DNA from: Diphasiastrum complanatum
Taxonomy: Eukaryota; Streptophyta; Lycopodiopsida; Lycopodiales; Lycopodiaceae
Direction of reading: 5' to 3'
DNA: 64,000 bases
Assembly: GCA_029204225.1 (NCBI GenBank)
Contig: CM055094.1
Coordinates: 26,095,041-26,159,040 of the forward strand
Shown: positions 25,657 through 64,000 of the stretch, piece by piece
Layout of the letters: every line of letters begins with the position of its first letter
How positions within the stretch are numbered: position 1 is the first letter of the stretch
The notes under the pieces: model-generated
Databases searched by the model: none
Told to the model about the DNA's origin: nothing
Seen by the model: only the letters and a program-made list of their open reading frames with translations
Position numbers and translations under genes: made by a program

Positions 25657-26185
25657 GCTAAAAGCATGGTTTGGTGGTACAAAAAAAGAACCCATTTTTT
25701 ATTGTACCTTTTGGTAGTATATTTTACTTTTTGGGAATTTATTACTCATAATTGTTTTGATTCCACATTAAAAATGACATAACTTTTAAGTGGTAAGTCC
25801 AATTTAAGTGAAATTTCGTGCGTTAGAAAGCACTTGATGAGCGCTTTCCAATGATATGTTAGATGACATACTTTTGAGCTACGATTAAAAAGTTATGGCA
25901 AGTCAAAAGTATGGGGATTTTATTAATCATAATTTTTTGAGTTCACATTAAAAATGCCATAACTTTTTAGTGGTAAGTCCAATTTTAGTGGAGTTTGGTG
26001 AGTTAGAATGCACTTGAGGAGCGCTTTCCAATGATATGTTACATGACATACTACCAAGGTACGATTTAAAAGTTATTGCAAAGTATTAGTTGAAAATAGT
26101 GTATAATAATACAAAAGTGCATTTCTACCCAAAAAAGGTAGTGTCCTTGAAAGTCCATGTTGTACCACCAAACCATGCTTTTAGC
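25657..26185. mobile_element. Non-autonomous TIR element (MITE-like, 529 bp) inside copia gag
   Basis: The two ends are perfect inverted repeats of 26 bp starting GCTAAAAGCATGGTTTGG. The flanking CAAGAG at 25651-25656 and 26186-26191 is a 6-bp target duplication; removing the element plus one copy rejoins the gag frame. No coding capacity. Inside, a block of about 165 bp is repeated in tandem at a 180-bp period (CACATTAAAAATG at 25764 and 25944). The 6-bp duplication does not match the usual hAT (8), Mutator (9) or CACTA (3) lengths, so the superfamily is open. Confidence 0.85.
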
Positions 26186-26191
26186 CAAGAG

Positions 26192-29860: not shown

Positions 29861-29915
29861 GTGTAGATTGGTTGGTGAGCAGCCCTTTTGCCTGTCAAAA
29901 GGGTTAGAACACTAG

Positions 29916-37112: not shown

Positions 37113-37580
37113 TTCATGCATTGAAGAGGTGAGGGTGTATACATCAGAACCATAGTGCTTTTGCTAGCAGGAACTTGGATTTGGGAGAGGAATCCAAACT
37201 CGCTAACAAACAAGCCATCTGTGGACCATAAGTGGATCAAATCAAGCCTGATCTGCCTCAGCTGAGCCTTGTACGGACAGAGAGCTCACACGTGTAAAAT
37301 CAGCCCTCTTTGTTGGAGTGCTACTTCTCAAGGAATGATCCAAATTTGATGTTCTATAGCTTGTTGGATAGGTATTGAAGAGCAGAATGTGTTGCTTGAG
37401 TTTCTAAATCAATTGGATTTGTTTTTAGAAGAGTTTTAGGCAATCAGAGAGTTTGGGAGAGTACTCATCTCGTGTGATATGCCAAAGGGAGCACACATCA
37501 GTTTTTTTTACCAATTTCCTCAATTTTCAGCAACATTTTCAACTCCATCTTTGTCATTACTTGAATTTGTCATAGAGAAC

Positions 37581-39684
37581 ATGTCTTCATCATGTTCGCA
37601 TTTCTTAGAGCACAGTGAAAGATTAACATCTTCCAATTATGCAATGTGGAAGATTAGAATGGAATCATTATTGATTCTACAGGATGTAATGGACATTGTG
37701 AGTGGAGCTGAAGCAGAACCTGCAACACCTAATGAAGCTACAAAATTCAACAAAAGAACCAGAATTGCCCTTTATTTTATAAAAATGAATGTCACAAATG
37801 AAGTGTTAAGAGAGATTAGTACATGCACCACTGTCAAGAAGGCTTGGGACACTCTAAAAACAATCTATGAAATTAAGAATACTTCTAGATTGCTTACACT
37901 TAGAAACCAAATCTTTCTAAGTTATCAGAGAGTAGATGAGAGTGCTTTATCATATGTAATGAGAGTAAAGGATCTCCATCAAGAGTTAGCTGGTATTGGA
38001 GATGCTCTTATGAACACTCAACTTGTATCTCTAAGTCCTTAATGGACTTAGAGATGAGTATGACAATATTGTGCAGACTTATGCTATCAAGGAGGAACTT
38101 CCATCCTCGCAGACACTGCAAGGTGTTCTCATTGCTAAAGAAAGCAGGCAAGAGAACAAGATGCTGAGGATCAACAGACTTTCATTGAAAGATGGTGGAG
38201 ATGACAAAGCACTCTTCATCAGAGACAAGTCAAGAGGCAAGGGCAAAGATCAACAAAACTTCAAGAAGGACAAAGCCAAAGAAGGAGGTGAGGATCAGTC
38301 CTCACAAGATGCAACATCCAATGGCAAAAAGAAGCTGTCAAAAGTCAAGTGCTTTTTCTGTGGCAAGAAAGGCCACTATGCATCAAACTGTTTCAAGAAG
38401 AAGAACCAATCTAAGCAAGCTAACCTTACTAATGAAGATGAGTGTGAGGGTATTGAGAGTGAAAGAGAGGATTCTTTAATGATGTCTAGTTTATCATCTT
38501 TTCTTTCAAGAATGAAGAAATCTGGTGGATATATAGTGGGGCTACTTCCCATATGTCTAGTTCTAGAAACTCTTTCACAAGTCTCATGCCATATCTAGGT
38601 GCAAAAAGATCAATCTATACTGCTAATGATGTAGAGTGTAGAATTGAAGGAATAGGTAGTATTCCACTGCATGCATCATCATCAAAAGCTTTTTGTTTGA
38701 ATAATGTACTTTATGTACCTAGACTAACTAAGAATCTCATTAGTGTAGGATAGTTGTTTGATAGTGGATTGGATGTCAAGTTTCAAGTTGACAAGTGTAT
38801 AATCTCAAGAGAAAATGAAGTTATAGCTAGAGGATCTAGAATTGAAAAGTTGTACAAACTAGATTCTAGGGAGAGTGCTAACATTTCAAATATTGCTTAT
38901 GAGACCAAGGTTCTTCAGGAGGATTTGCGGCATAAGAGATTAAGTCATCCCAATTTCAAAGCCATGCAATCTATGGTCAAGGAGGAAAAAGCTGTTGGAC
39001 TACCAAAGACACTGTCAAAGGAGCTTCAACCTTGTGAAGCTTGTGTTTTGGCATAATCACACAGAAGGCCTTTTCCAAGATCAAGCATCAAAACTAAGCA
39101 TCAATTTGAACTCGTGCACTCTGATGTTTATTTCTCTTCAACCAAAAGCAAAGGAGGAACAAATTGCTTTGTCTCCTTTATAGATGATTATACAAGATAT
39201 TCTTGGATCTATATGCTGTCTTCTAAAGCCATGGTTTATGATGTTTTTCTTACTTTCAAAGCTTATGTAGAAAAGCAGTTTACTTTCAAGTTGAAAGCTT
39301 TGAGAAGTGATAGTGGAGGTGAATACACCTCCAATAAGTTTAAAGACTTTTGTGAGAAGGAGGGAATACAAAGAGAATTTTCATGTTTATATACTCCTCA
39401 GCAAAATGGATTTGCTGAGAGAAAAAATAGAACTTTGTGTGAATGTGCAAAAGCCATTAGGCTAGAAGCTTCTCTACCTAAAGAATTTTGGGGAGAAGCA
39501 GTTGCATGTGCAAATTATCTTTGTAATAGGCTTCCTAATCTTGCAATAGAAGGAAGAACACCATTTGAGATGTTGTATAAGAAAAAGCCTAAGGTAGATC
39601 ATCTTAGGATCTTTGGCTGTGTATGCTTTGTGCATGTACCTTTAGAGACTAGAAAGAAAGAAGATCCTAGTGCTGTTAAGGGAA
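37581..39684 (+). pseudogene. Outer copia gag, protease and integrase (left half)
   Basis: Starts at ATG 37581 (M-S-S-S-C-S-H-F). Order: Gag core (IKMNVTNEVLREI), CCHC knuckle (KCFFCGKKGHYASNC), a degraded protease region, then integrase with DVYF, RSDSGGEY and TPQQNGFAERKN, where the D, D and E catalytic positions remain. Defects are a frameshift near 38040, another near 38525 that destroys the protease DSGA box in frame, a TAG at 38751-38753 and a TAA near 39055. The frame is then broken after the G-I-F of integrase by the inner copia at 39690; the next codons V-G-Y are found at 45556. Confidence 0.92.
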
Positions 39685-39689
39685 TTTTT
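39685..39689. repeat. Target site duplication TTTTT, left copy
   Basis: The uninterrupted target reads GGAATTTTTGTAGG. TTTTT is present on both sides of the inner element (39685-39689 and 45551-45555), giving a 5-bp duplication as usual for copia. Confidence 0.9.
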
Positions 39690-40342
39690 TGTGAAAAATT
39701 GTCAACTAGTAGTATTTTCCTAACTTGAGATTTTGTAGGCCTATGGCCAAATAAAAGTTAGAGATAGGTTCATACATGTATGTAGAGGCCCAAAGTATGT
39801 GTACACTACTTTTGAGGTCACATTAATTAGAGGAGGTCGAGTGTGGAGCTCTTCTATTGGCTCATAATTTGGTGCATTCCTATTTGACCAAATTTCTAGG
39901 TAGATGGGTGAATCCTATTGGACCCCAATTTTAGCCTATCATAAGACAAGTGGCCAAGAGGCACTATGGCTGCTATAAATAGCCATCTCCACGAGTATGT
40001 ACACATCTCATTTTCATTCTATTGAATGAATGTTATGCTCTTTGAAGATCCATCTTCTTCTCTCTCACTTTTTTGTTCATATCTTGCATTCTAGCCACTA
40101 GAATTGTGATTTCTTTGTTGCTATGGCTTCACACGTGTGAAATGCAGGTTGTAGGCTCTGAAGTACGGACAGGGACAGCAAGTTTCTGTTTGTGGAAGCT
40201 TATGATCAGATTTTGATGTTTAGTTGATGTTTAGTATGCTTAACATCACAATTTCTATCATTTTTTCAATCTAGATGTGCATAACTTCCATGGCCAAGAT
40301 CTTTATGAAACTTTAGCATCTTTTGGATCTGAGTTTTTCACA
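39690..40342 (+). mobile_element. Inner copia 5' LTR (653 bp)
   Basis: Begins TGTGAAAAATTG and ends GAGTTTTTCACA, with perfect 9-bp inverted ends TGTGAAAAA/TTTTTCACA. By eye it is identical to 44898-45550 over all 653 positions. It contains a TATA box (CTATAAATAG) and the palindrome TTCACACGTGTGAA at 40128-40141. Confidence 0.97.
39973..39982 (+). promoter_or_regulatory. TATA box of the inner copia promoter
   Basis: CTATAAATAG at offset 283 of the LTR, a canonical plant TATA box. Transcription should begin about 30 bp downstream, near 40010, which would define the start of the R region. The 3' LTR has the same box at 45181-45190. Confidence 0.75.
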
Positions 40343-40354
40343 TGGTATCAGAGC
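40343..40354 (+). promoter_or_regulatory. Primer binding site of the inner copia
   Basis: TGGTATCAGAGC starts at the base after the LTR; perfect complement to the tRNA-iMet 3' end. The leader runs to 40951. Confidence 0.93.
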
Positions 40355-40951
40355 ATTAGGCGGCCAAATGTGCAGGTTTTGCCAGATTTAGAAGAGATTT
40401 GTGGGCGAGTTTGCTTTTGTAGCATTCCAATCAAGTTTCTAGCTAAAAATCTTGTTGATTTATGTGTAGAAATTGGATCTTTGTGATCAAAACATCATTT
40501 GTATGCATTTCAATTGAAGTAGGGCGAATTCCCTCTGTACTTATCAGAATAAGGAGACAAAAATTGTTTTGGAAAGAGGGAGATGCAAGATCCAACAAGA
40601 TCCTATTAGTTTTCCATTCTAGCATATAGTTTTTTGATTCAATTTCTTGCTTCTTCATGTCAAAAACTTCAAAATTGATGTAACCCTCTGATTTTCAGTT
40701 TGCTGAATGATTCAAGAGTGTATTTCAATCTTAGGAGTGAGGGAAAAGCAAGTATATTGAGGTTTGGTCTTGGTTTGATCAAGAAATCATAAAACTAGTG
40801 GCTAAAATTGAGGAAAAAGTGAGGAAAAGAGAGAAAAAGTAAGGTTTTAGGTTCCAAATCTTTGTGATTTCTTCTTGTGTTTCATTTGTTGATTCAAGAG
40901 AGTGCTTAGTGCATTGGAACAGGTCAAAGATCAGAGATCAATCATTGCAAC

Positions 40952-43900
40952 ATGGCTACAAATGGAGGCTACATGTTGGAAAGCAATGATAGGCTTACCT
41001 CCCTCAACTATTCTACTTGGAAAGTAAGGATGGAGTCTTTGCTTGAGATGAATGAGTTGATGGATATTGTTGTAGGTGTGGAGGAGAGACCTTTGGCACC
41101 TCAAGAACAATTGAGGTATGACAAGAGGGCAAAGAAAGCCCTTCACATGATCAAGATGAATGTGACAAATGAGCTTATCAAAGAGGTTGGTAAGTGCACA
41201 TCATCTAGTGAAGCTTGGGAAGCCTTGAAGAAGGTTTATGAATCCAAGTCTACTTCTAGAGTGTTGACTTTAAGAAGGCAAATCTTTTCTTGTATGCAAA
41301 AGAAGAGTGAGAGTGGACATGCTTTTGTTTTGAGAGTTAAAGCATTGAATGATGAGTTAGCATGCATTAATGATGGCATAAATAATGAGGAGCTTGTTCA
41401 AGTGATTCTCAATGGCTTGTTGGATGATCATGCTAATCTTGTTCAAAGTTATGCTATCCAAAAATGTTTACCAAGTGTTGGAGACTTGCAAGAGGTCTTG
41501 TTGGCTGAAGAATTCAGGTTGCAAGCAAGAGTGGGAGCATCTTCTACATCTCAAGGAGGAGAAGAGGAGGCAATGTTCTCTAAAGGCAAGTTCAAGGGCA
41601 AAGGTAAAAGCAATTGGTCTAAAGGGCAAGACCAAGGTGAGCACTCTACTTTTGGCAAAAAGAAGGATAGATCTAAGCTAAAATGTTTCTATTGTGGAGT
41701 CAAAGGGCATTTTGCTAGTGATTGTTTTAAGAAAAAGAGGGATCAAGGGGAAAAGCAAACCAATCTAACTATTGATGAGGGTGGGGATGAGCTTCTTTCA
41801 AATGATGCTTTTGTTATGTCATCTTGCTTGTTGGCTAATCATGGAGACATTGATCCTTGGTGGATTGATAGTGGAGCCACTTCTCATATGACATATCATA
41901 AAGAGTATTTTTCATCTTTAATGGCATTTGATGGTGATAGGAAGGTAATCTATACCGCAAATGATGGTGAGTGTGCAATCAAGGGGATTGGCACAATTCC
42001 TATTTCACTTTCTACAAATAGGAATATAGAATTGAAAGATGTTTTGCTCATTCCATCCATTACCAAGAACTTACTTAGTGTAAGCCAAATGCTTGACAAA
42101 GGATTCAAAGTTGAGTTTGATGGTGATGCTTGCTTGATCAAAAAGGGGTGTAGTATCATTGCAAAAGGGAAAAGGCAAGGGAAATTGTTCAAGCTTGATG
42201 CATGTGTTGTTGCTAACCAAGTTGGATGCATGGCAAATGAACAAATGTCAATTCAAGAGGTATGGCATAAAAGGATGGGACATCTCAACTACAAGGCCTT
42301 GGAGGTAATAGCCAAAAAGGAGGTAGTAAGGGGACTTCCCAAGTCTCTTACTTGCTTGAATCATGTTTGTGAAGAATGTGCTTTGTCTAAATCACATAGA
42401 TTGCCATATACTAGATCTATATCTAGATCTAAGATGCCTTTTTCTCTCTTGCATTCGGATATTCATGGTGTTACTACAATTAGCAATGGAGGTGCTAAGA
42501 TGTATGTAACTTTCATTGATGATTTTAGTAGATTTTGTTGGGTTTATCTACTAAAGAGCAAGGATGAGGTGTTTGATGTGTTTGTCAAGTTCAAAGTTGC
42601 TATTGAGACTCAATTTACAACCAAAATCAAATGCTTGAGGAGCGACAATGGTGGTGAATACATTTCTAACAAATTCAAAGCCTTTTGCGATGAGCATGGG
42701 ATCAAGAGGGAGTACACATGTCCAAGAACACCACAACAAAATGGAGTGGCCGAGAGGAAGAATAGAACCTTGTGTGAGAGTGCAAAGGCAATGAGATTGA
42801 ATGCTAATCTTCCTAAACCTTTTTGGAGTGATGCTTTGTTGTGTGCAAATTTCCTATGCAATAGATGGCCAAGTGTTGTATTGGAAGGAAAAACCCCTTT
42901 TGAAGCTTTGTTTGGTACGAAGCCTAATGTCAAGTTTCTAAGAACTTTTGGATGCATTTGCTACTTCAACATTACTCTTGATGATAGAACTAAGGAGGAT
43001 CCATCTTCAAGAAAGGGCATTTTTGTTGGTTATAGTGAAGTAAGCAAAGCATATAGGATTTATGTTCCTTCAATCAAGAAAGTGTTCACAAGTAGGGATG
43101 TCATTTTTGATGAAAGTAACATTCAAAAAGTTGTTTCAAGTGATGATGGTGTTGTTGCAACTAATGTGCTTGATGACAATGGAGTTGATGACACATTGGA
43201 TGTGGATGTTGAAGAAGCCTCTTCAAGTCAAATTCCAAGGAGAACTCCAAGGCATAAAGTGAAACCCTCAAGGCTCACTTATGATGGCAAAGGTAAGCAA
43301 GTGGTGGATGGATCCAACTATGCTTTCCTAACTTCTTTTGATGTACCTTCATGTGTAGATGAAGCAAGGCAAGAAGAGGAATGGATCCAAGCAATGGATC
43401 TTGAGTTTGAAGCACTTATGAAGAACAACACATGGAGATTGGTGGAGCTTCCAAAGGGCAAAAGTGCAATTGGATGCAAATGGATCTTCAAGGTAAAGAC
43501 AAATCAAGATGGATCTATCAACAAGTTCAAGGCAAGGTTGGTGGCTAAAGGTTATGCTCAAGAGCATGGCATTGACTATGAGGAAACCTTTGCACCCGTG
43601 GCAAAGATGGTGAGCATAAGAGTAATCATTTCCCTTGCAACTCTTTATGGATGGGATCTTTGGCAATTAGACATTTCTAATGCTTTCTTGAATGGTGATC
43701 TTGAAGAGGAAGTCTACATGGAGCAACCCGAGAGCTATGTTTCTCATAGCAAGCCTAATCATGTGTGTTTTCTACAAAAAAGTTTGTATGGTCTTAAGCA
43801 AGCACCAAGGAGTTGGTATGCTAGGCTTAACTCTTTTCTACTTTCTCAAAACTTCACTATGAGTGAGTATGATCATTCACTTTACTTTAGAATTAGTGCT

Positions 43901-44902
43901 AATGATGTTACAATCCTTCTAATTTATGTGGATGACATTATTTTAAGTGGAGGGAACAAGGAAGATATAGAAGATATCAAGAAAGCACTAAAAAAGGAAT
44001 TTGAAGTGCATGATCTTGGTCTTTTGAGCTATATCTTAGGAATAGAAGTAATTAGAACTTCTCAAATCACTTTTATTTCACAAGAGAAGTATGCTATTTC
44101 TATTCTCAATAGATTTCATATGGTAGATGCAAATCCTATTGATACACCTATGGAATCACATGTAAAGCTAACTATAAGAGGTAATGAAAGATCCTTCGAG
44201 GACATTACTCTCTATAGGAAGCTAATAGGTTCTCTTATATATCTAACCATCACAAGACCTGATTTATCTTATTGTGTTGGTAGATTAAGCCAATTCATGC
44301 AAGATCCTAGCATAGAACATTGGAAACTAGGAAAGAGGATCTTGAGATACATCTCGGGAACAAAAGATTTTGGCATTGTTTATAGAGGCTCATCACCTAA
44401 CTTATTTGGTTTTTCAGATTCAGATTTTGCAGGAGACCTTATGGATAGAAAATCCATAAATGCACATGCTATTTTCATAGGTGATGGAGCTATCTCATGG
44501 ATGTCGAAGAAACAAGCAACTATATCACTTTCTTCTAGTGAGGCCGAGTACAAAGCTTTGACATCATGCACAAAGGAGATGGTGTGGATCAAGAGGATGA
44601 TTATGGAGCTTCATTTGCTGGATTTTTCAGAGAGTCCAATCATCTTTTGTGACAACCTTTCAGCCCAAAGTCTAGCAAGCAATCCGGTTTTCCATGCAAG
44701 GAGCAAACATATCGAGGTGGCTTACCATTTTGTGAGAGAACAAGTGTTGGCAAAAGAGATCAAGCTTGAACATGTCCCATCAAAGGAATGTGTGGCTGAT
44801 ATCTTTACCAAAGCATTGGGAAAGGACTTATTTTTCAAGCATAGAACAAGTCTTGGTGTACTTTCTAAATCTATGCTAAAACTAGTTGAAGAGGGAGTGT
44901 GA
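40952..44902 (+). CDS. Intact Ty1/copia gag-pol polyprotein (1316 aa)
   Basis: A single uninterrupted frame encodes the whole retrotransposon polyprotein; ATG 40952 lies in AACATGGC, a good plant start context. Domains: Gag core about 1-240; CCHC zinc knuckle C245-C248-H253-C258; aspartic protease with DSGA at 306-309; integrase zinc site H439, H444, C473, C476; integrase catalytic D503, D565, E601 (35 residues between the last two, as expected); reverse transcriptase with D907 in QLDISNAFLNG and YVDD at 992-995; RNase H with D1156, E1197 and D1234, ending near a HARSKHIEV segment. All key residues I looked for are present. The TGA stop lies inside the 3' LTR (its bases 3-5). The product would form virus-like particles and copy its RNA into new genomic insertions. 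With the LTR identity this suggests a recently active, possibly competent element. Confidence 0.97.
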   Translation: MATNGGYMLESNDRLTSLNYSTWKVRMESLLEMNELMDIVVGVEERPLAPQEQLRYDKRAKKALHMIKMNVTNELIKEVGKCTSSSEAWEALKKVYESKSTSRVLTLRRQIFSCMQKKSESGHAFVLRVKALNDELACINDGINNEELVQVILNGLLDDHANLVQSYAIQKCLPSVGDLQEVLLAEEFRLQARVGASSTSQGGEEEAMFSKGKFKGKGKSNWSKGQDQGEHSTFGKKKDRSKLKCFYCGVKGHFASDCFKKKRDQGEKQTNLTIDEGGDELLSNDAFVMSSCLLANHGDIDPWWIDSGATSHMTYHKEYFSSLMAFDGDRKVIYTANDGECAIKGIGTIPISLSTNRNIELKDVLLIPSITKNLLSVSQMLDKGFKVEFDGDACLIKKGCSIIAKGKRQGKLFKLDACVVANQVGCMANEQMSIQEVWHKRMGHLNYKALEVIAKKEVVRGLPKSLTCLNHVCEECALSKSHRLPYTRSISRSKMPFSLLHSDIHGVTTISNGGAKMYVTFIDDFSRFCWVYLLKSKDEVFDVFVKFKVAIETQFTTKIKCLRSDNGGEYISNKFKAFCDEHGIKREYTCPRTPQQNGVAERKNRTLCESAKAMRLNANLPKPFWSDALLCANFLCNRWPSVVLEGKTPFEALFGTKPNVKFLRTFGCICYFNITLDDRTKEDPSSRKGIFVGYSEVSKAYRIYVPSIKKVFTSRDVIFDESNIQKVVSSDDGVVATNVLDDNGVDDTLDVDVEEASSSQIPRRTPRHKVKPSRLTYDGKGKQVVDGSNYAFLTSFDVPSCVDEARQEEEWIQAMDLEFEALMKNNTWRLVELPKGKSAIGCKWIFKVKTNQDGSINKFKARLVAKGYAQEHGIDYEETFAPVAKMVSIRVIISLATLYGWDLWQLDISNAFLNGDLEEEVYMEQPESYVSHSKPNHVCFLQKSLYGLKQAPRSWYARLNSFLLSQNFTMSEYDHSLYFRISANDVTILLIYVDDIILSGGNKEDIEDIKKALKKEFEVHDLGLLSYILGIEVIRTSQITFISQEKYAISILNRFHMVDANPIDTPMESHVKLTIRGNERSFEDITLYRKLIGSLIYLTITRPDLSYCVGRLSQFMQDPSIEHWKLGKRILRYISGTKDFGIVYRGSSPNLFGFSDSDFAGDLMDRKSINAHAIFIGDGAISWMSKKQATISLSSSEAEYKALTSCTKEMVWIKRMIMELHLLDFSESPIIFCDNLSAQSLASNPVFHARSKHIEVAYHFVREQVLAKEIKLEHVPSKECVADIFTKALGKDLFFKHRTSLGVLSKSMLKLVEEGV
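44886..44897 (+). promoter_or_regulatory. Polypurine tract of the inner copia
   Basis: The purine-rich run GAAGAGGGAG directly precedes the TGTGAAAAA start of the 3' LTR. It is the expected primer for plus-strand synthesis and overlaps the last codons of the polyprotein. Confidence 0.85.
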
Positions 44903-45550
44903 AAAATTGTCAACTAGTAGTATTTTCCTAACTTGAGATTTTGTAGGCCTATGGCCAAATAAAAGTTAGAGATAGGTTCATACATGTATGTAGAGGCCCA
45001 AAGTATGTGTACACTACTTTTGAGGTCACATTAATTAGAGGAGGTCGAGTGTGGAGCTCTTCTATTGGCTCATAATTTGGTGCATTCCTATTTGACCAAA
45101 TTTCTAGGTAGATGGGTGAATCCTATTGGACCCCAATTTTAGCCTATCATAAGACAAGTGGCCAAGAGGCACTATGGCTGCTATAAATAGCCATCTCCAC
45201 GAGTATGTACACATCTCATTTTCATTCTATTGAATGAATGTTATGCTCTTTGAAGATCCATCTTCTTCTCTCTCACTTTTTTGTTCATATCTTGCATTCT
45301 AGCCACTAGAATTGTGATTTCTTTGTTGCTATGGCTTCACACGTGTGAAATGCAGGTTGTAGGCTCTGAAGTACGGACAGGGACAGCAAGTTTCTGTTTG
45401 TGGAAGCTTATGATCAGATTTTGATGTTTAGTTGATGTTTAGTATGCTTAACATCACAATTTCTATCATTTTTTCAATCTAGATGTGCATAACTTCCATG
45501 GCCAAGATCTTTATGAAACTTTAGCATCTTTTGGATCTGAGTTTTTCACA
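44898..45550 (+). mobile_element. Inner copia 3' LTR (653 bp)
   Basis: Same length and, as far as I can read, same sequence as the 5' LTR. It ends TTTTTCACA and is followed by TTTTT, the second target copy. The full element is 39690-45550, 5861 bp. Confidence 0.97.
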
Positions 45551-45555
45551 TTTTT
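45551..45555. repeat. Target site duplication TTTTT, right copy
   Basis: Directly follows the inner 3' LTR; the outer copia reading continues with GTAGGATATGC (V-G-Y-A). Confidence 0.9.
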
Positions 45556-47476
45556 GTAGGATATGCATCTACTAAAAAAGCATACAAAGTATATCTTCCC
45601 TCTACTGACAAGAATGTTGTAAGTAGAGATGTGAACTTTCATGAAGATCAGAAGTTTAACTTGGATGAAGCACAGATCAAGGAGTCTCATGCAAGATCTA
45701 CAATCATCAATCTTGATGCTGCTCAAGAAGTGGTGAGGCCGAGGCTTGAGGAGGAGCAACTTCAAGCACCTACACCAAGAAGATCTACAAGAGAAAGATT
45801 TGAGCCAAGAAGGCTCACATATGATGTTGAAGGAAGGCAAGTGGAAGGTGAAACTTCCTATCATGCACTTTTCATATCAGATGAAGAGCCTAAAGATGTC
45901 CAACAAGCACTTCAATCCGAGAAGTGGGTTGAAGCAATGACCCAAGAGTTTGAAGCCTTGATGTCAAACAACACATGGGAGCTTGTGGAGCCACCAAACA
46001 ACATTTGGATTTTCAGAATCAAGTATAATAATGATGGATCTATCAACAAATATAAAGCAAGACTTTGTGCTAAAGGCTACTCACAAATCAAAGGTCTTGA
46101 CTATGAAGACACCTTTGCACCAGTTGCAAAAATGGTAACAATCAGAATACTCATATCTCTTGAATGTTTTCACAATTGGAGACTGTTTCAGCTTGATGTT
46201 TCTATTGCCTTTCTCAATGGTTACCTTGAGGAGGAGATTTACATGGAGCAACCTCCTAGTTTTGTGAAAGAAGGTGAAGAATCAAAAGTTTGTCTTTTGT
46301 TCAAAAGTCTCTATGGACTAAAACAAGCACCAAGGTCTTGGTATGCAAGGCTCAACTCCTATCTCATATCACTCGGATTTTGTCTTAGTGAATATGACCC
46401 CTCTATGTATATTAAGTTTGTAGATAATTTTGTAATTATTCTTCTCATCTATGTAGATGATATCATTCTTTGTGGAAATAATGAGAAGCTAGTTGAAGAA
46501 ACTAAGCATGCACTTGGTAGTGAGTTTAAGGTGTAGGACTTAGGAGTTCTTCACCATATTTTAGGCCTTGAAATTGACTTTTGGAAACATCATGCCTTCA
46601 TAAGTCAAAGTAAATATGCACTTTCCATGCTCAAGAAATTCCAAATGGAAAACTGTAAAGGCATAGATATACCAATGGAGCACATTGTAAAAGTTCATAG
46701 ATACACCAATGGAGCACATTGTAAAAGTTCCTATGAAAGATGATGAAAAATCCTTTATGGACATCACTCTTTATAGGAGTCTTATTGGCTCACTTATATG
46801 GTTAACTGTGACTAGGTCTGATCTAAGCTTTAGTGTGCATAAGCTAAGTCAACACATGCGAGATCCAAAGATATATCATTGGAAGTCGGCTAAGAGAATC
46901 ATGAGGTATATATTTTCTACCTTAGATTATGGATTATTCTACAAAGAAAAAGATCTGACTTTGGTTGCTTTTTCAGATTTAGATTCTGTAGCAGACAGTT
47001 TGGATAGAAAATCCATAAGTGCTTACACAATTTTTCTAAGAGAGAATCTAGTTTCTTGGCTATCAAAGAAGCAAGCAACTATATCCTTATCATCCTGTGA
47101 AGCTGAATACAAATCTCTTACAACCACAACAAAGGAGGTTTTATGAATCAAAAGGCTACTTTTGGAGCTAAAGTGTTATGCAGATGAAGAACTTCCAATT
47201 ATCAAGAATGATAACATCTCAGCTCAGGCTCTTGCAAACAATCCTATGTTCCATGCAAGGAGCAAAAGCATCGAGGTAGCTCATCATTTTGTAAGAGAAA
47301 AAGTCATTGGGAGAGAGATCTTATTGGAGCATGTTGGATCTTCAAATTGTGTTGCAGATCTTCTCACCAAGCCATTACTCAATAATGTCTTAATCAAGAT
47401 GAGGTCTAATCTAGGCCTAATTTCAAAGTCTATGTTAGATAGGAGCATATATTTTAAGGAGGAGCGTGAAGATTAG
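45556..47476 (+). pseudogene. Outer copia RT and RNase H (right half)
   Basis: Continues the integrase C-terminus (V-G-Y-A...KVYLPS), the proline/serine-rich linker, then RT (KARLCAKGYSQ, QLDVSIAFLNGYLEEEIYMEQP, LIYVDDIILCG) and RNase H (SWLSKKQATISLSSCEAEYKSL, HARSKSIEVAHHFVREKV). The first RT aspartate and the YVDD box are kept, but the residue after D-V-S is I instead of N. Defects: a short deletion where G-C-K-W should stand (about 46005), a TAG at 46534-46536, a 34-bp tandem duplication at 46663-46730 and a TGA near 47145. The frame ends 12 bp inside the 3' LTR, the same layout as in the inner element. The copy is dead. Confidence 0.92.
46663..46730 (+). repeat. 34-bp tandem duplication in the outer copia
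   Basis: CATAGATATACCAATGGAGC...GTAAAAGTT is followed at once by a second copy with one substitution; 34 bases shift the frame. Confidence 0.9.
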
Positions 47477-54845: not shown

Positions 54846-54857
54846 GCTCTGATACCA
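54846..54857 (-). promoter_or_regulatory. Primer binding site (tRNA-iMet type), minus strand
   Basis: The reverse complement reads TGGTATCAGAGC, four bases from TGTCATG on the plus strand, which would be the CA end of a minus-strand LTR at 54862. The other LTR boundary cannot be placed. Confidence 0.6.
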
Positions 54858-54861
54858 CAAA

Positions 54862-57233
54862 TGTCATGTGCCATACCTCTCAATCCAACCAACCAAGCTA
54901 GAACAAGAAGGCAACCACCACACCTATGTTGAAGAGAACCAAAGATGAAGAATAACCACAAGCTACCACAAAGCTCATATCAAAGTGAAACTCAAAAGGA
55001 GATGGATTCCATAATGGAGAGTGAGGAGTACATGGATTCATGTGATGGGGGACATGAGCCCTAGCAAGATCAAGATCCCAAGGCTCACATTCACAAAGGA
55101 AGAATAGGAGATGGAGCTCCTAGCTCACGTGATGTGAGCTCGCAAGTCTGCGAGCGGGCAGGCGTGAGCCCGGGTCAGCCTGAGCTGCCCGTGACGATAG
55201 TAAGAATTCGGTAGTCAATCTAATCGGCATCTGGATACATCGATTGCCGCTTGTCATCTTTAGGTTAATTTGGCTAGCTAGTGATTAGTTTTCCTATATC
55301 TAATCTGGTTTTACAACAAATTGCACAAAGCTAGGGACAACTGAACTTCTGATACAAATGGTTCATGTAAGCACATATATTTTGCTAGCATTACACAAAC
55401 GTATAAGTCCTATGAACCTTGGAAGAAAATACAATTGATACATGGAACATTTTTTTTATCATGGCCCTTGCTACAGTAGCTAAGAAAATCAAACTCGCAC
55501 GATCCACAAAACAAAAGTACAAACCATGTCCTCAAAGGACCCTATCGGAATAGGAGCGAGCCATGTTCCAAGAGTGATTTCCACATCGACATTTAGTCGA
55601 GCTCTCACTTCTGCAATCTAGCAAAATATCAACACCAGATGATCCATTTTAGTCAATGCTTCCTGCCCTTGTGTTGTGATGGGGGGGGGGGGGGTGTTCT
55701 AGGTAGCGCTCGCGCTTGCATTGAATCAGAAGTAATCTCAAAAGTCAAATGACCCCAAAAATTCCAAAGCACCTATGCATATTAGAAATGTATAATGATT
55801 CTTGAAAATAGATACTACTATCAACAAAATTCTTTTGGAGATACTACAATTTTTATTTTAAAATGTATGACATCCAATATACCTACAAGTGATTATGTGA
55901 GTTTCCATTCATTTATGTTTGACGAATTTTTTTTTTTTACATAATGAAACAAATTATGAGATTCTAAATATAACACGAAAACTAATTGGATATAATAAAA
56001 GTAAAAGCATTAACTTAAATACTTGCAATTGCATTTTTTACAATCATTTGGATTGAAGGATTATATATGGAAGTGAATGAACCAACAAGTACCAACTAAA
56101 GGCTAAAGATGGGAATGCTAGCATAGAAAGTTCCTAATTATCCCTGATTTTGTTAAAAATGATAGAAAGAAATAGCATGATTTTGGCAACTTGAAAGCAT
56201 AACCCCCTTAATCATGACAAAAATTTGACAATTTGGCTTGATGCCATCTAGGCAAACTTAGACACTCAAATACGATTGTACCATTTTTTCTAAATGTGAC
56301 ATGTAAGCGATTTTGAATTTTCAGAGCTAATCAACTACTACATTAATGTTCATGTTTCATTTGATGAGATCAATCACAGCAGCCATAGAATCTATCCAAG
56401 CCTTAGGATTGGGACTGGCTTATTAATCTGAAATTGATTTTAGGGGTGAATTTATGTAGATTTGACTCTCGAGGAAGATGGATGTGCCATTGTCATTTTA
56501 ACTTTTGAGGTGGCACTTGCTTGTTCATCAGCCTTAAACAACCCTGACCACCTTATGTATCTTGTGAAGCCATTTATGATTCTTGCCTTAAAGAAGAGAG
56601 CTCAACGAACAATGAGGAAGCCTGTCGAGGCTGCCATGCCGGGAATCGGAATTTTATGGTGTTTCCTATTTGGGAGCACAGCCGGATGGCCCGGATCCTT
56701 GCGGGCCCCGGCGCCCTGGATTGGAACAGTGTTCGTAATAAAGTTTCAAACTAACATTATAAAAAACCCACAAAAGTACTACTAAATTGGTTAAAAGTTA
56801 AAATAAAATAAATTTAAAATTTATAACTAAAATCAACTGATTTTGAGTCATATCAAAAACTTAAAAATCTAAAATAAAAAGATAAAAAATAAATTTAAAC
56901 AATTATGTTGTTTGTATTTGTCGACTTTTCGAGAGCATTGGATTGCAAACTATGGATGTATGTTTGGAGAGCGTTGAGTTAAAGAGCTTATTAAGTGAGT
57001 CACAGAATTAGGAAGAACACACAACGCACTAACAAAAGTCACGTGAAGTTAAAATAAAAATTATTTTATTTCATAGGCTGAAGAACAATACAGAGTAACA
57101 TCAAGCTCCATGTGCTTAAGTCTTGAAACAAAATAAATAAATCAATGAAAACTGAGGAGATCTATCTTATGATTCTAATCTCTTGAGTAATTTTCTGCTT
57201 ACCTTGCCTTCTTGATTGTTGTTTGAATCTATA
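54862..57233. other. Possible minus-strand LTR, then unassigned sequence
   Basis: The first few hundred bases may belong to the LTR implied by the neighbouring primer site. A palindrome-rich GGGCAG...CTGCCC block lies at 55155-55190 (same motif as the Helitron ends) and a G14 run at 55681-55694. The frame at 56462-56785 shows no known domain. No gene is supported. Confidence 0.35.
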
Positions 57234-58218
57234 TTAATTAAAAAAATAGCCTCCTTTTATTTGAAATTTTCTTTTAAAGCGAGAGAGAGAGCGCCCAAAG
57301 AGGGCGCTAGGTAAGAGAAGGAGAGCGAGGGAGCCAGCGAGGGAGGCGATTCTTTTGCTTTGCATTTCATTACATAATGTAGAGCTTCTGATCCACAAAT
57401 CCCTCAGCCTTCTCGCACTTGATGTAGAAGCATTGCTCAGCTGCTGTGTTTTCCTTTCATTTTCTGTCTGCACGTTTGCAGATCGATCGAACTCTCAGCA
57501 TCACACTGATGTCTTCTCTGTTGTTTGCAAAGCACAAGATCAGATCAGAAGGAAGACCCAAATCGGTTTTGTTATCGGTATCAGTGAGTAAGAAGGTATG
57601 GGGATCAAAGGATGTAATCAGGTCGATCAAGAGCTTTTGTTGCTAATCAGCCGACCTTTCTGAAAACGATAGAACGCAAGATTCTCAGAGCTCAGGCCTC
57701 AGAGACTGGAACTCTGAGAGAGCGGCTAGGGCTAGCTTCCCAGACGGCTATTTGGAGCATGATAATGTCTAGATCCAGGCGACAATAACTGAAGTTTATC
57801 ATCCCTCGTCGTTGCTGGACAATACGTGAGTCTGTCTAGGATTTTGGATACTTCAATCTCGTAGATAGTCTAATACTTCGACAGGAAACATAGAATATAA
57901 AATATTATCTACTTTATTGAATAGCTCCACTTTAAGAGTTTTCAACGAGGCCTGTCGTCTCACAAAGGGACGATGGGTTCTTAATATTCGTCATGGTGCC
58001 ACTGAAAATCTCCATGTGGCAGTTTTCAACACGTGGTCAGCATATAAGTGGTCGGATCGTAATAAACATTGTCGATGAGTCCTCACCAACAGAACTAGCA
58101 ACGTTTTACATCAAGTAACAGCTTCGATCTCGAATTAAGCTTAATAAATTTTACCAGCACCGTTCAAATTGTATCCTGATTATCTATTATGACTTAACAT
58201 ATATTCAAAGGAGGTTCC
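57234..58218. other. Unassigned sequence with gene-like composition
   Basis: A purine-rich stretch with GCGCCC-AAAGA-GGGCGC (57290-57306) precedes a short frame starting ATGTCTTCTCTG near 57508 and ending before AAGAAG|GTATGG near 57596, which looks like a first exon with a donor site, but no following exon was found and the product is not recognised. It lies inside the presumed outer Helitron. Confidence 0.3.
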
Positions 58219-58293
58219 CGGGCAGCTCACGCTGCCCGCCACGCATTAGCGGGCAGCGTGAGCTGCCTGCGAAACGCTATTTTTTAATTAATA
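58219..58293 (-). mobile_element. Helitron A, 5' terminal region (continues past the insertion as TCTA at 62684-62687)
   Basis: On the minus strand, TCTA at 62687-62684 plus TATTAATTAAAAAATAG from 58293 gives a 5' end nearly identical to that of element B (TCTATATTAATTAAAATAAT). Downstream come GTTTCGCAGGCAGCTCACGCTGCC and a second, inverted GGGCAGCGTGAGCTGCCC unit (58219-58238 against 58250-58267). A 3' end for element A was not found. Confidence 0.65.
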
Positions 58294-58328
58294 CTAGCAA
58301 AGTGTGCCCGTCGTTGATGGGCAATACA

Positions 58329-58404
58329 TGGCCGACAATCTAGGTGACAAATTGTGGTCAATGCACGGCCGACAATCTAGGTGACAAATTGTGGTCAAGA
58401 CATG
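58329..58404 (-). repeat. Two-copy tandem repeat, about 37 bp
   Basis: GGCCGACAATCTAGGTGACA followed by AATTGTGGTCAA is present twice in succession, just inside the 3' end of Helitron B. Confidence 0.85.
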
Positions 58405-58559
58405 TGGATGATGCTCAGAGCGACGGGCGATTGATGATTGAAGGCGGACATAATTAGATGCGGCCAAAATTTTGTCGGCCAATCATTTGGGGGGTGGTGT
58501 TTTGGATGGTCTCGACATGCATCGACATGACACTTTGACACCTTGACATGTGTGCAGGT

Positions 58560-58640
58560 GTGTGCTTTTAGGTGTGCATGTGTGTGTGTATGTATGTGTG
58601 CATGTATGTATGTATGTGTGTGTGCATGTGTATGTGGTCA
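58560..58640. repeat. TG/TATG-rich low-complexity tract
   Basis: Imperfect GTGT/GTAT/GCAT repeats over about 80 bp. Confidence 0.85.
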
Positions 58641-58804
58641 AAATGTCGTGAAATGTGATCCTCTGTAGTGAAATGCGGTCCTTATGCAGCGAGAAATGTG
58701 GTCAAAATGTAGTCTTTTGCGATCAAAATGGCCGCAAAATGGTCCTTTTAACACGATCAGGTCAAATTTGGAGAAGCGGTCAAAGTGGCAAATGGAGTGC
58801 GCGC

Positions 58805-58806
<2 letters not shown>

Positions 58807-58865
<59 letters not shown>
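58807..58865. repeat. (AG)n microsatellite
   Basis: About 29 AG units, preceded by GCGCGC and directly followed by the hairpin at 58867. Confidence 0.95.
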
Positions 58866-58866
<1 letters not shown>

Positions 58867-58868
<2 letters not shown>

Positions 58869-58895
58869 GGAGCCCAATATTTCATTGGGCTCCCA
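58867..58895. repeat. Perfect 12-bp hairpin
   Basis: TGGGAGCCCAAT-ATTTC-ATTGGGCTCCCA; perfect arms and a 5-base loop. Confidence 0.95.
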
Positions 58896-59122
58896 AAATC
58901 AAAAAACTTCAAAAAAATAGGTGGGAGTGGGCATGGGGTACAAACCCCCCCCCCCTCCCCCCCTTCCCCGTCCTTTTCTCCCTCCCTCCCCCGTACCTTC
59001 TCCCTCTCTTCTCTCTCTCTCTCCCACTCCCCAGGCCACTAACCTAATTGGGGGCGCAGCGGCCCGAGGGCGCCATGGCACAGCACACACCCCCCCTTCC
59101 ATGAAAGCGTGAGGGTGGTCTA

Positions 59123-59148
59123 GGGCAGCGTGAGCTGCCCGTGAAACA
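59123..59148 (-). repeat. Extra partial copy of the Helitron 5' region
   Basis: On the minus strand: ATTAGTGTTTCACGGGCAGC then TCACGCTGCCC, matching the A and B 5' regions but without the TCTATATTAATT start. It directly adjoins the gypsy integrase fragment. Confidence 0.6.
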
Positions 59149-59442
59149 CTAATCCACCACTTGGTAACGACCTAGGTAAAATCCTTGCACTAAGACTGCT
59201 TGTGAGACACATATGTTCTCAACATATCTTTCATAGTCTAATTTAGTTCTTTCAATCTGTCCATCTAATTTAGGATAATTAATAGAACTGAAACTAAATA
59301 AGATTTCAACCTTATGGAATACAGTTGACCAAAAGTAACCTATAAACTTAGGATCTCTATCACTAAGAATATCACTTGGTAAAGAAGTCGGAATTGGTGA
59401 TTTAAGATCCGAAATCCAAGACCTAAGTAGTTGAAATTCCAT
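59149..59442 (-). pseudogene. Ty3/gypsy integrase fragment
   Basis: The frame contains ILSDRDPKFIGYFW, then FSSINYPKLDGQIERTK, the usual gypsy integrase core pattern S-D-R-D-x-x-F...H-P-Q-T-D-G-Q-x-E-R with P-K-L-D in place of P-Q-T-D. The second catalytic aspartate (SDRD) and the glutamate (QIER) are visible. Upstream domains, RT and LTRs are missing. It lies within Helitron B and was either captured or inserted there before decay. Confidence 0.8.
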
Positions 59443-61020
59443 TTTGACAATGTAGGTTGCACCCTAAACCTTAAATCAACACTTGTTTTTTGTTGTAACA
59501 TGTGCCTCACCATGAATTTATCATTTTTCAAAAACCCTAAAACCAATTCACCTACTCAATGTTTGTGAACCGATTCGAATCAACTAAATTGGCCAATTCA
59601 AACCTCTTAAGTCAAATCAATCTAGTAACATTGTTTTAATGTGATGCTTTTTACAAGTGATTCACCTTTTTCATAAAAGATTGCCATGAATATGCCTTTT
59701 TATGAAAAGAAATTTGGCCATGAATGGTTGAGAAGGCTCCAAAATGACAGGTTGATCAGCCCCACACTTTATCCTCTACATCACATCCTAGAGGACACTA
59801 AACTTCAAATAGTGATTTATGGCAACAAATTTTATGCATTTGCCTAATCCAAAACAACCAAGTTGTGTTGTGGTAAAAAAAATTGCTATAACAGGTGCAT
59901 TGCTTAATCGTCCACAAATGTTTTGAACAACCATATATTTGGGATTTAGAAATATAGAAGTCTCTAAAGTTGTGACTCACACTTTGACAATCTGGTTCAG
60001 GATATCGCTCTTTGATTGGACCAAAGATGTAGTACGCGTTCCAGATTGCGATCCAGAATGCATTCCAGATCACGATCTAGAACGTGTTCCGGAAATTCCC
60101 GTTAGGGTTTTCCGGATCGCAAATTTTTTTGATTATTTTTTTTCAAAGTTTGCCAATGAGTGTCATGTGAGGGTTTCTAAAAAGCAGTTCTTATGCAGTT
60201 ATGTTGGTTTCAGATAGTTAGGCCCACAAATTAGAAAACTTTTCAAAAACTTGTTGGTTGTCAGAACTTTCTGGTTGTTTGGGGTTAGCTGCATTCATTG
60301 GCTTCAATATATTTGCATTCATTGTATAGATCTACAACAATAATCTGCTCTTCATGAAGATATATCTCCATTCACTGTCTATATCTGCAGCAGTAAGCTG
60401 CTATTCATTTGCAAATCGGGATTAGAAAAAAATTTGAAATCTTTTTTGCGATCCAAGACCAAAAATGTGGTCCCGAATCACCAACGTTTCGCATCGCATG
60501 ATCTGGGACGTTTTTGCAGCGGATTGTAATCCTCTGCAACGATGGATTGGGCCGTAAGTAGTGATTAACATGTCACATATAGGTGTAGGGTAAACTTTTT
60601 TCTAGGAAATACTCATCACTAACTATATTGGATTGAACATTTATGTGACTTTTTATTTGTCATGGCAATACTAATCTGTTTTTTCAGCCCCAATTTAATA
60701 CCTAAATTAGTGTTAGGGTGACTTTAGGCCTACCATATTGATGCTTCAGCCTTGAGACGGAAAGCAAGAATTCCTAATTCCAAAACATATTATGGAAAAT
60801 CAAGTCTTCCAAAGAACAACATATACGTGCCTGTCTCTGTTGATGTTGATAAGATTATGATTTTTATTTATGACAGTAATCGCCTTACATTAAGGATTAC
60901 GCATAAAATAGCTTCGTTTTTGCACAGATGGATAAAGAAGAGAGAGAAAAATAGATAACGTGGGGGGGACCGAGGGCTTCGGGGCCATTGTGCGAAGGTT
61001 TTTTTTTTTTTTTTTTTTTT
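59443..61020. other. Unassigned interior of Helitron B
   Basis: No recognised gene. Near 60030-60120 the phrases CGATCCAGAATGCATTCCAG and ATCACGATCTAGAACGTG look like degenerate tandem units of TTCCAGATCGCGATC. A T22 run lies at 60998-61020. Confidence 0.45.
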
Positions 61021-61599
61021 GGCCGTACGGTATGGTCGTACAGCCGTACACGTGGACCATTTTTTATTTTATTTTATTTGCGATTTTTTGTCGTTTTTTT
61101 CTCGCAAATTTTTTTACGTTTGTGGTGGAATGTGGATGTGGACAGCCAATGACGGGCTGCCACATAGCACATGCACATTTCATCGTAGAGAGGAGAGAGA
61201 ACGTGCATTCCACCGGAGAGAAAAGAGAGAAATTGAATTCCATCGGAGAGAGGAGAGAGAATGAAAGATTCGTAGGAGAGAAAATTGGATGGACATAATA
61301 TTATGCTCCGGAAGGTGGTCCCAAAATACAAAGGACACCTCACCACAATGCATTAGGCGTTTGAAAAAAACTACTTTAGAACATCCAAAAACCTGAAAGC
61401 TGAATGCAGCACAAGCAACGAAAGATGTGGAGGGTTGTTGGCCGCAGGCAGAGAGAGCAACGCAAAATCTGATGACCTGCGGGGGTAGAGATCGCAAGGG
61501 GTGAGATGCAGATTGTAAGGCGATGGCAGAAATGGATTGAAGCGAAGAGTAGAGAAACGGGAATAGAAGAAGAGAATCAAAGAGTGGAGAGCAAAAAGA
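61021..61599. other. Unassigned interior of Helitron B, GAGAGA-rich
   Basis: Between 61185 and 61285 the phrase CGGAGAGA-AGAGAGAA-TGAA-TTCCAT repeats about four times at roughly 25-30 bp. No supported coding region. Confidence 0.45.
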
Positions 61600-61782
61600 T
61601 CAACGAAGCATCTCCTGCGCAAGCTTCTCAAAAATATCATTAATGAAGCTGTTCATGATGCCCATAGCCTTACTGGAGATACCAATGTTGGGATGCACCT
61701 GTTTGAATATGTAGATCTTGTATGTCTCAACACTGCGCTTGACTCTCTTCTTCTTTTTGCCCTCCTTGGCTGCCGCTGGGAG
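61600..61782 (-). pseudogene. H2B: Histone H2B fragment
   Basis: The minus-strand frame contains [18 protein letters not shown], then [19 protein letters not shown] and [11 protein letters not shown], unmistakably the first half of the H2B histone fold. Two residues (normally V-L after the F-K) and one neighbouring lysine are lost by an in-frame deletion. After LAQE the frame diverges to M-L-R-stop (61600-61602), so the second half of the fold and the C-terminal helix are missing; most of the basic N-terminal tail is also absent. It cannot form a nucleosome. It lies inside Helitron B on the same strand and is best explained as captured host DNA. Confidence 0.9.
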
Positions 61783-62137
61783 ATTTATCAGTATGAAGCC
61801 TACAGTAGTACTTTACATTACACCAAAAATCTTAGACCATCAAATCCATCATACATATGTATGCTCTGGACCGGGATGTAATCTTAGAGTCCACCCAATA
61901 TCATGTCGGAGGAGGCTCATGCCCTCGTGAGGTTTCGCCTTGTTTGGCCTACGGCGGGAGCAGAACCCCCTTGGCCCAGAAAAGGGGCAAATTGAAAATA
62001 ATAACAGATTTCTGCTGCTTTAATTGGATATATTTGACTTCCGACTGGTTCATGCTCCATTAATAGCGGCAATGAGACATATTACCACTGTAACTTGCAA
62101 GAAAATGTGAAGAAGATCTAAAAAATACTGCAATTGC

Positions 62138-62413
62138 GTCTTGCTCGTGCCTCTCTTCATTGCTGTCAGGCTGAGAAATGGTGGAGGCAACGGAGGCACT
62201 CGCTGTGCGCACCGTGGCTGCAATGTTGTTGGTGTTGGACGAAACACTCCGCAAGTAGCTGGAAATGGCACGCCATGTCGAGGGAATGAATTTTCTGCCC
62301 CTGCCACTGCCATAATCTGCCTCACCTCTTCCTCTTGCCCTCTGCAATCCAGCGTCGCTGTTCCTCAGCCACCTACCCTTGCCACCCTCCTGCCCTGCCT
62401 TTCCTCTTTGCAT
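62138..62413 (-). pseudogene. ATG18-like (f/g/h type) first-exon fragment
   Basis: From ATG 62413 a frame of about 92 residues ends near 62138. After a Gly/Arg-rich start come FIPSTWRAISSYLRSVSSN, NNIAATVRTASASVASTI and a charged S-N-E-E-R-H-E-Q-D, the conserved N-terminal helical segment of plant ATG18f/g/h-type (BCAS3-domain) proteins, which precedes the first WD blade. In the intact family a WAGFDKLE-like segment follows; here the frame runs into unrelated sequence with no good donor site. No WD-repeat or BCAS3 part is seen, so it is a fragment. It lies about 270 bp inside the 5' end of Helitron B, on its strand. Confidence 0.75.
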
Positions 62414-62631
62414 GCCCAGTGCCTCCTGCTTCAACCCTCATAAATTAAAAAAATACGAAAGATTATCAAAACACGAAAGATTATCATAAATTAACAAAAC
62501 ACGAAAGATTCCAATCCAACGAATGATACATAAACAATAGTGAGGCGCTTACTTTTGCCATGCTGCCAACATAAAGATGGCCGTCCTTTTCTCTCTCGTC
62601 TCGTCTCGTCTCATCCACGTTCTCGCGTGAC

Positions 62632-62653
62632 GGGCAGCGTGACCTGGCTGCCC
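62632..62653 (-). repeat. GGGCAGC...GCTGCCC palindrome near the Helitron B 5' end
   Basis: GGGCAGC and GCTGCCC arms around GTGACCTG. It corresponds to the palindromes at 58219-58267 and 59123-59140, each about 30-50 bases inside a 5' terminus. Confidence 0.8.
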
Positions 62654-62687
62654 GCGAAGCACTATTATTTTAATTAATATAGATAGA

Positions 62688-64000
62688 TTAGGAGTATAGC
62701 AAATGCTACTCCTGACCTGCAGTAATTTTGAGATCCGAGTACCTAAGTTAGAGGGGCACCGAGGAGGGTCGAGGCATTTTGTGAAACTCATTCTTGACTA
62801 CAAAAGAAATCAAGTTTATGTTATTAGCAGTATACATGACCGCTGCAGTAATGCTTCTGCCGATCTGCGTTTGTAGGGTGGCGGTGGCAGATACTATGGT
62901 CCATACATACTGCTAATGACAAACGTAGCAGTCCATGGGATATCATGCTTATGGTGCACAGGAAACTCTTTCTACATTTGTGAACTGTGTAGCATTCATT
63001 GGGTTATAGGGGAAATCAGTTGAGGAATTTACTCCCAGTTCGCACTTTATGAATTGGAATTTGGGTTATAGGGGAAATCAGTTGAGGAATTTGCTCCTAG
63101 TTCGCACTTTATGAATGTCAGACCTTTACAATTAAAGATCATTGATTCTGGAAACGAGCTCTCCCAGCGAGAGATCTTGCTGACACGATTTTGTGGTCTG
63201 CAGGTTGGATTACAACTATCTTTACACAGTCGTGACGACAGCAGGCTGTTGTGAGAGTTTCTCAATTGCACAGTTTGCGCTAACTTCAAATATGCAGTAG
63301 ATTTTGCATTGGAAAATATTCAGGGGAACACAGCAGCGAGCTGATGGCTTAGAGCCATAATGTTCTAGCCCATGACTGGAGTTGTACGGCACGCCATCCT
63401 TGCATCTTATACCTAAGTGCAGGTAGTGATGAGATATTTTGATTCTTTACTGCAATGGCTTGTGGAACTTGTAATTCCAGTTTTTTTTTTTTTTAAAGTT
63501 CTAGCACGAGTAGTGCGAGCTTCAATATATTGAATGAACAAGTTAAGACCTTTTCAGCCTTGATTTTACGTAAAGCTTCAAAGTATAGGTGACTGTTGCA
63601 TGAAGGCATGAGGCTGAAGCAAGTAATGAGCAAGCGGCATTGGCATCATTCCAATAATATATATTGCTTAATTGAAGCTAGTTAGGCTTCAGTTTAGAGG
63701 GGAATAGTATCTGTTGTTGTTGCTTCTGCTTCTGTCTGTGCCTATTTAGCTCTAGATTGTGAAGGCACTTAATTGCTATGCCTTTCTCACATTCTCCAAC
63801 ACAAGTCCTGCTGTAGTAGGATTAGTTTCATCATTATTGAATAATTGACCTATTAATATATGTGATCATCTTGAGTACATCCTGAATTTCAAGATGAGTT
63901 GCCAATGTGTGCAAAATTGATTGCAATGTGACAGTAAGAGAAGTAACACAAAGCATAATGATTTCTAATGTGGGCATGTCTTGTGAGATTTTCACTTTGT
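62688..64000. other. Host flank of the Helitrons, no gene proven
   Basis: Less AT-rich than the transposon areas and possibly genic (intron or UTR). A TCTGCAG acceptor-like site near 63203 precedes a short open stretch, but neither product nor partner exons are recognisable. Confidence 0.35.
63001..63116 (+). repeat. Two-copy tandem duplication, 62-bp period
   Basis: GGGTTATAGGGGAAATCAGT...TTCGCACTTTATGAAT occurs twice with two or three differences. Confidence 0.9.

Follow-up and report, generated by a model that had tools for sequence, protein, structure and literature searches.

A 64,000-nucleotide stretch of the Diphasiastrum complanatum genome (C3:26095041-26159040, hereafter the window, within a searchable genome of 1.74 Gb) contains a nonautonomous Helitron of 4390 bp, element B, which very probably split the 5′ terminus of an older copy of the same family, element A, by inserting after its fourth base. 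This is the reading that, in our view, best explains the locus as a whole. B occupies the minus strand from 62683 to 58294, starts with TCTATATTAATTAAAA, and ends in a hairpin followed by CTAG. On that strand the order at the nest is ...ACTCCTAA / TCTA / TCTATATTAATTAAAATAATAG... ...TGCCCATCAACGACGGGCACACTTTGCTAG / TATTAATTAAAAAATAGCGTTTCGC... (here and below a slash marks a junction). The host sequence ...ACTCCTAA has its last base at 62688, and the four bases TCTA follow at 62687-62684; the first base of B is the T at 62683, from which it reads TCTATATTAATTAAAATAATAGTGCTTCGCGGGCAGC..., and the last base of its CTAG is 58294. From 58293 onward, after B, the strand continues as TATTAATTAAAAAATAGCGTTTCGCAGGCAGC..., so that B is flanked by TCTA on one side and by TATTAATTAAAA on the other.

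When the two flanks are joined, i.e., TCTA with the sequence from 58293, they yield TCTATATTAATTAAAAAATAGCGTTTCGCAGGCAGCTCACGCTGCCC, the 5′ terminus of A, which aligns closely with the 5′ end of B itself over about 55 bp. Comparison of the window with itself likewise pairs 58250-58293 with 62631-62679 at 84% (E 1.3e-5). The chance of a four-base and a twelve-base match at one given place is about 4e-9 if the base frequencies of the window are taken as independent. The TCTA at 62684..62687 (minus strand) thus represents the first four bases of A, severed by B, and the rest of its 5′ terminal region (TATTAATTAAAAAATAGCG..., with GC-rich inverted repeats) lies at 58207..58293 (minus strand), where it is homologous to family 5′ ends. 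The 3′ end of B (58294..58335, minus strand) is defined by its sequence, by fold prediction, and by other copies; it has the hairpin TGCCC-ATCAACGAC-GGGCA, which is predicted to fold and stands 7 nt upstream of CTAG. A reading of this DNA made from its sequence alone had placed B at precisely these coordinates and had proposed that its removal restores a sister terminus; the boundaries were exact to the base, and the alignment bears out the restoration. A genome-wide search for the exact junction GCTAG/TATTAATTAAAA found it at just two places, this locus and its near-identical copy on contig C125, with none for the reversed-pattern controls, although diverged versions would escape a search of this kind.

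Head-to-tail CTAG/TC junctions do occur elsewhere in this genome, and one locus (L130, 80-580) has two similar short Helitron-like units in tandem with starts about 400 bp apart, which may be a true rolling-circle concatemer. B and A could be read in the same manner, as a concatemer in which TCTA was lost from the inner junction and the TCTA upstream of B is there by chance. However, the inner junction is CTAG/TATT rather than CTAG/TC, and the missing TCTA is found exactly at the outer end. Moreover, a rolling-circle tandem would join CTRR to TC and repeat one element, whereas the interiors of B and A differ: comparison of B with the 8.3 kb from 58293 downward recovered only the terminal sequence and one 29-bp match of the family 5′-end type. 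The +4 position argues against a simple concatemer, which we consider very improbable, and the insertion of B within the terminus of A remains by far the better account.

Recurrence of the termini and identity of the family

Both boundaries of B (58294..62683, minus strand) recur in other copies. With a query spanning its 5′ end, 40 scored matches were obtained, 21 of them starting at query base 57 or 58, which is the TC boundary. The 5′-terminal pattern (TCTATATTAATTAAAA followed by one to four bases and TAG) is present at 92 places genome-wide, as against none for the reversed control. Flanks were read at 90 of these, the omitted two being those on C125, and gave 65 distinct upstream 20-mers, whose last base is A in 57, G in 6, T in 1, and C in 1. 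Uninterrupted sister termini of the form A/TCTATATTAATTAAAA are common in the genome. The 3′ end was followed in 20 fetched loci: 17 end in CTAG and one (L047) in TTAG, which does not conform to CTRR, all at the same base and each with a T after it, and two (L032 and L045) gave no resolved end. The pattern sought was [CT]TRR and thus admitted no base other than C or T ahead of TRR. The 18 resolved loci include several apparent duplicates of one locus, so that fewer of them are independent. Eight further loci of 2.9-5.5 kb have both ends (L013/L014 and L009/L010 each count once); the 5′ flank is A in seven of them and the 3′ flank is T in all eight. The sole non-A flank belongs to L012, which is preceded by another element. 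Seven of the both-ended elements were compared with the window, and their likeness to B lies mainly in the end modules. The sequence-only reading had expected other copies to share the ends of B around variable interiors and the uninterrupted terminus to exist in its own right; both expectations are borne out. It had also held that deviating boundaries, or ends that never occur as a pair, would count against it, and the eight both-ended loci point the other way.

These termini display the features by which Helitrons are recognized, and all those on which the first identification had leaned (TC, hairpin, and CTRR) are present in the B family. TC begins the 5′ end, and CTRR closes the 3′ end, at the same base in independent copies; a short hairpin precedes the 3′ end, in B with the predicted stem TGCCC/GGGCA and in other copies with stems of which some appear imperfect by eye. 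Insertion between A and T occurs without target duplication, with A upstream in 57/65 distinct 20-mers and T downstream in 18/18 resolved loci. Terminal inverted repeats are absent by eye, as the start of B (TCTATATTAATT) and its end (CACTTTGCTAG) are not inverted copies of each other.

Loci with the Helitron_like_N domain (PF14214) are numerous in the genome (150 were scored of 1332 candidates), and the B family is linked to helicase sequence. One element with both family ends (L010, 345-5892) holds a PIF1 helicase piece (PF05970, E 3e-31), and a second locus (L026) has a family 5′ end at its start and a helicase piece downstream (E 1.2e-59); eight other pieces submitted alongside these two gave no helicase match. 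The DNA around both helicase pieces matches a third locus (L132) at 81-98% over several blocks, and in this locus the upper end of a PF14214 match is found some 11.6 kb downstream of a family 5′ end, both being on one strand.

The resident element, its host site, and the interior of B

A can be called a sister element with confidence as far as its 5′ end is concerned. A query taken from 58293 matches family 5′ ends elsewhere over bases 1 to about 87, with 17 other rows beginning at base 1; the query itself started at 58293, so these matches establish homology rather than a boundary. Thus, the proposal of the sequence-only reading that the target is a sister element holds for the first ~87 bp (58293-58207). 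Beyond them A is a mosaic, which is where that proposal is weakened. First comes a segment (57228..58204, plus strand) that is inverted relative to a further family element, D (L050:486-3347); it has a family 5′ terminus of its own (57228) on the opposite strand, followed by a gene-derived piece. Next is segment X (56427..57227, minus strand), common to D and to the locus L049, and then a tail block (55122..55210, minus strand), also common to D, past which the likeness ends. L049 contains both gene segments and is probably the source gene; within its printed parts no Helitron end was seen by eye. The stretch 54857-55120 (minus strand) adjoins TGGTATCAGAGC at its end, and likeness to D stops at about 55122. 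We take TGGTATCAGAGC to resemble a Copia-type primer binding site, and a retrotransposon perhaps interrupts A, which would explain the loss of similarity to D at this point.

This mosaic structure bears on what exactly B entered. As clearly terminal sequence amounts to no more than ~87 bp, the kilobase after it runs inverted with respect to D, and no 3′ end has come to light, A might be a stranded solo 5′-terminal fragment, in which case B would sit in a Helitron relic and not in a sister element. Yet segment X and the tail block follow in A in the same minus-strand order as in D, which suggests a decayed and rearranged D-like element. We accordingly give the solo fragment appreciable weight but consider it the less probable of the two, and the remainder of A, judged by its sequence, is likely to belong to a sister element.

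The host side of the nest offers an approximate view of the site before invasion. Two paralogs of the right-hand flank (62697-63554) are present on C3 (L052 and L053); they are 86% identical to the flank and 99% identical to each other. They lie at C3:26.25 Mb and C3:11.98 Mb, one of them only ~90 kb from the nest. Neither contains A or B, and both read ACTCCTAATAGC where the window has ACTCCTAA/TCTA, that is, ACTCCTAA^TAGC, an A^T site. The insertion site of A would hence also have been A^T. The other side of these paralogs was not found near the window.

Several observations weigh against the nest as we reconstruct it, or at least against its full extent. The paralogs are locally repeated at the site, and nine bases ahead of it they carry 20 bases that the window lacks, so the match across the empty-site junction rests on 9 bases. 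A search for the far host flank of A by way of L052 brought back nothing beyond these paralogs themselves and a dispersed repeat. Both assembly copies of A (on C3 and C125) contain B, and no B-free allele of A was seen. For the 3′ end of A, neither a scan of the window for a hairpin followed by CTRR and T nor comparison with complete relatives gave anything convincing, though the scan, at the threshold used, also missed the 3′ end of B itself and its silence says little. Finally, none of the loci looked at contained an intact autonomous copy with both family ends, and L010, L026, and L132 are decayed, broken, or interrupted. Of the autonomous relative sought by the sequence-only reading, what came to light are PIF1 pieces associated with family ends and a Rep domain in the matching L132.

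The interior of B includes a histone-fold gene fragment of 59 codons (61603..61779, minus strand; Pfam PF00125, E 7e-7), apparently a captured piece of a gene, which we take to be H2B-like. The 3′ module of B (58294..59152, minus strand) opens with another family 5′ end in truncated form (ATTAGTGTTTCACGGGCAGC...) and matches L067 and L103 from base 3532 of B on and L050 from base 3569 on; the module starting at 59152 resembles short family members. This truncated second end indicates that B may itself be composite, and read-through from one Helitron into a second may have produced it. Elsewhere in the window are retrotransposon-like open frames on the plus strand (7859-8965, 25106-29915, and 37440-47146), presumably of the Copia type; within the last of these, 40910-44902 comprises 1330 codons without a stop.

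Abutting ends and the choice of target

The nest is one of several places in the genome where a family 5′ terminus meets the 3′ end of another copy. A genome-wide search for GCTAG, zero to four bases, and TATTAATTAAAA gave six matches and none in controls: this locus and its C125 copy with CTAG/TATT, and four with CTAG/TCTATATT, among which those on C15 and C20 are apparently one duplicated locus. By locus, 5′ termini stand directly after a family 3′ end in CTAG or TTAG in L012, L068, L082, and L024/L025, and after CTA in L015, L080, and L111/L125. The junctions of the latter group, CTA/TCTATATT, are without the G of CTAG and are explained neither by A^T insertion nor by an exact concatemer; a single tandem may be the ancestor of both L080 and L111/L125. 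Altogether about 7/59 distinct exact 5′ termini abut the 3′ end of another copy, a tally of loci after duplicate pairs had been combined manually (clustering reduced the 90 flanks to 54 clusters, two of which lump tandem cases). A further abutment, with a variant terminus, is found in L009/L010. Two pairs of the tandem set were compared with low-complexity sequence filtered: on C8, elements of 8.7 and 3.8 kb have in common the first 100 bp and one 38-bp match, and on C14, where the second element was compared over its first 2.0 kb, it shares with the 5.5-kb element before it the first 57 bp only. Since both pairs are largely unrelated inside, they point to separate insertions.

Other candidates for self-nesting were also considered. 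Eight 3′-end matches extend well past the boundary of B; six of these loci were resolved (L012, L029, L030, L031, L033, and L034), and none then continues into a family 5′ end, while L032 gave no resolved end and the place on C886 was left out. A copy on C20 (L128) has TCTA upstream in the manner of a second +4 case, but no 3′ end was detected within the ~2.9 kb fetched; we estimate that one TCTA would be expected by chance among this many flanks.

From these observations we reconstruct the following course of events. B, a nonautonomous Helitron presumably mobilized in trans by Rep-helicase proteins, very probably entered the 5′ terminus of the older A at the A^T dinucleotide that follows its first three bases (TCTA^TATTAATT). 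The termini, the junctions, their recurrence, and the helicase link are what the data show, whereas the strand-transfer chemistry, the order of events, and the action of Rep in trans are what we infer. A resident copy with A as its upstream host base has the left end A/TCTA/TATTAATTAAAA, in which A^T occurs both at the boundary and at +4. Given that the 5′ terminus is rich in AT and that its boundary, between the host A and the T of TC, is A^T as well, copies of this kind display target sites at their left end. An element arriving at the boundary would create a head-to-tail CTAG/TC junction, and one arriving at +4 would create a split terminus like that in the window.

Whether resident ends actually attract incoming elements is a separate matter. 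The +4 site might reflect nothing beyond the fact that Helitrons generally favor A^T in AT-rich DNA, without attraction to sister ends. Preference for the AT dinucleotide is documented (PMC13286980) in a study that applied inverse PCR for circles and the sequencing of new insertions to wheat Xuan-Feng, the +4 event is a single one, and, approached from the 3′ side, none of the 18 resolved loci continues into a family 5′ end. The last figure counts against a high tandem rate and renders the rate of abutment uncertain, although the sample was picked by similarity to the 3′ end of B and includes apparent duplicates. On the other hand, about 7/59 exact 5′ termini do abut another copy, and under uniform choice of A^T sites only ~0.02 events would be expected at the 65 boundary targets even with 50,000 insertions. 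Thus, the abutments need some preference, be it local AT-richness, whose pull would need to be very strong if it acted alone, or a Rep protein that recognizes the 5′ end of the resident copy. We regard the chances of the general preference as evenly balanced. As a tentative and rather unlikely extension, we suggest that family members in this genome land preferentially at the left ends of resident Helitrons, in which case the Rep that nicks A/TC in donors would perhaps also nick resident copies and join the incoming 3′ end to them. If this were true, sister 5′ ends would collect chains of unrelated Helitrons that could later move as composites, mixing captured gene fragments.

Relation to known nested and tandem Helitrons

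Self-insertion of Helitrons and their occurrence in head-to-tail pairs have been published before, and B and A are a clear further instance. At maize r1, two adjacent Helitrons are arranged head to tail with CTAG directly followed by TC, and the pair was read as consecutive insertions, either at the 3′ G/T of the first element or at the 5′ A/T of the second, without a decision between them (PMC2267711). Like B and A, these elements have different interiors, and insertion at the 5′-end A/T is one of the options; however, the r1 junction falls at the boundary, where both options apply, whereas the split of the resident terminus at +4 in the present case points to the 5′ end as the target. In Fusarium, FoHelis are self-inserted or composite, with several 5′ termini and one 3′ end, and tandem Helitrons are described from Metarhizium, where the choice between insertion and rolling-circle replication was left open (PMC5148889). 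These cases resemble B in self-insertion and in a landing place within or close to the 5′ end of a fellow copy, but the termini there are noncanonical and FoHeli1/2 prefer TNAT/A, unlike the TC and CTAG ends and the A^T target of the B family (PMC5148889). Nested Helitrons were likewise proposed as the source of maize elements with multiple termini (PMC3288121); that was a hypothesis drawn from comparison of modules, whereas in the present case the split terminus can be read directly.

Head-to-tail arrays in plant centromeres and bats have been attributed to rolling-circle replication (cited in PMC5148889, PMC5876387, PMC6591975, and PMC2267711); B and A share their layout but differ from them in having unlike interiors and an off-boundary junction. 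A preference of maize Helitrons for landing near other Helitrons has also been cited (PMC12477314). Among the titles and abstract openings returned by a literature search, none reported a terminus split at +4. Head-to-tail pairs have been read variously as concatemers, as 3′-end insertions, and as 5′-end insertions (PMC2267711), and the split at +4 points directly to the resident 5′ end as the target. With abutments at ~7/59 termini, this genome is suited to testing whether Helitrons target their own left ends and thereby build composite, gene-shuffling elements.

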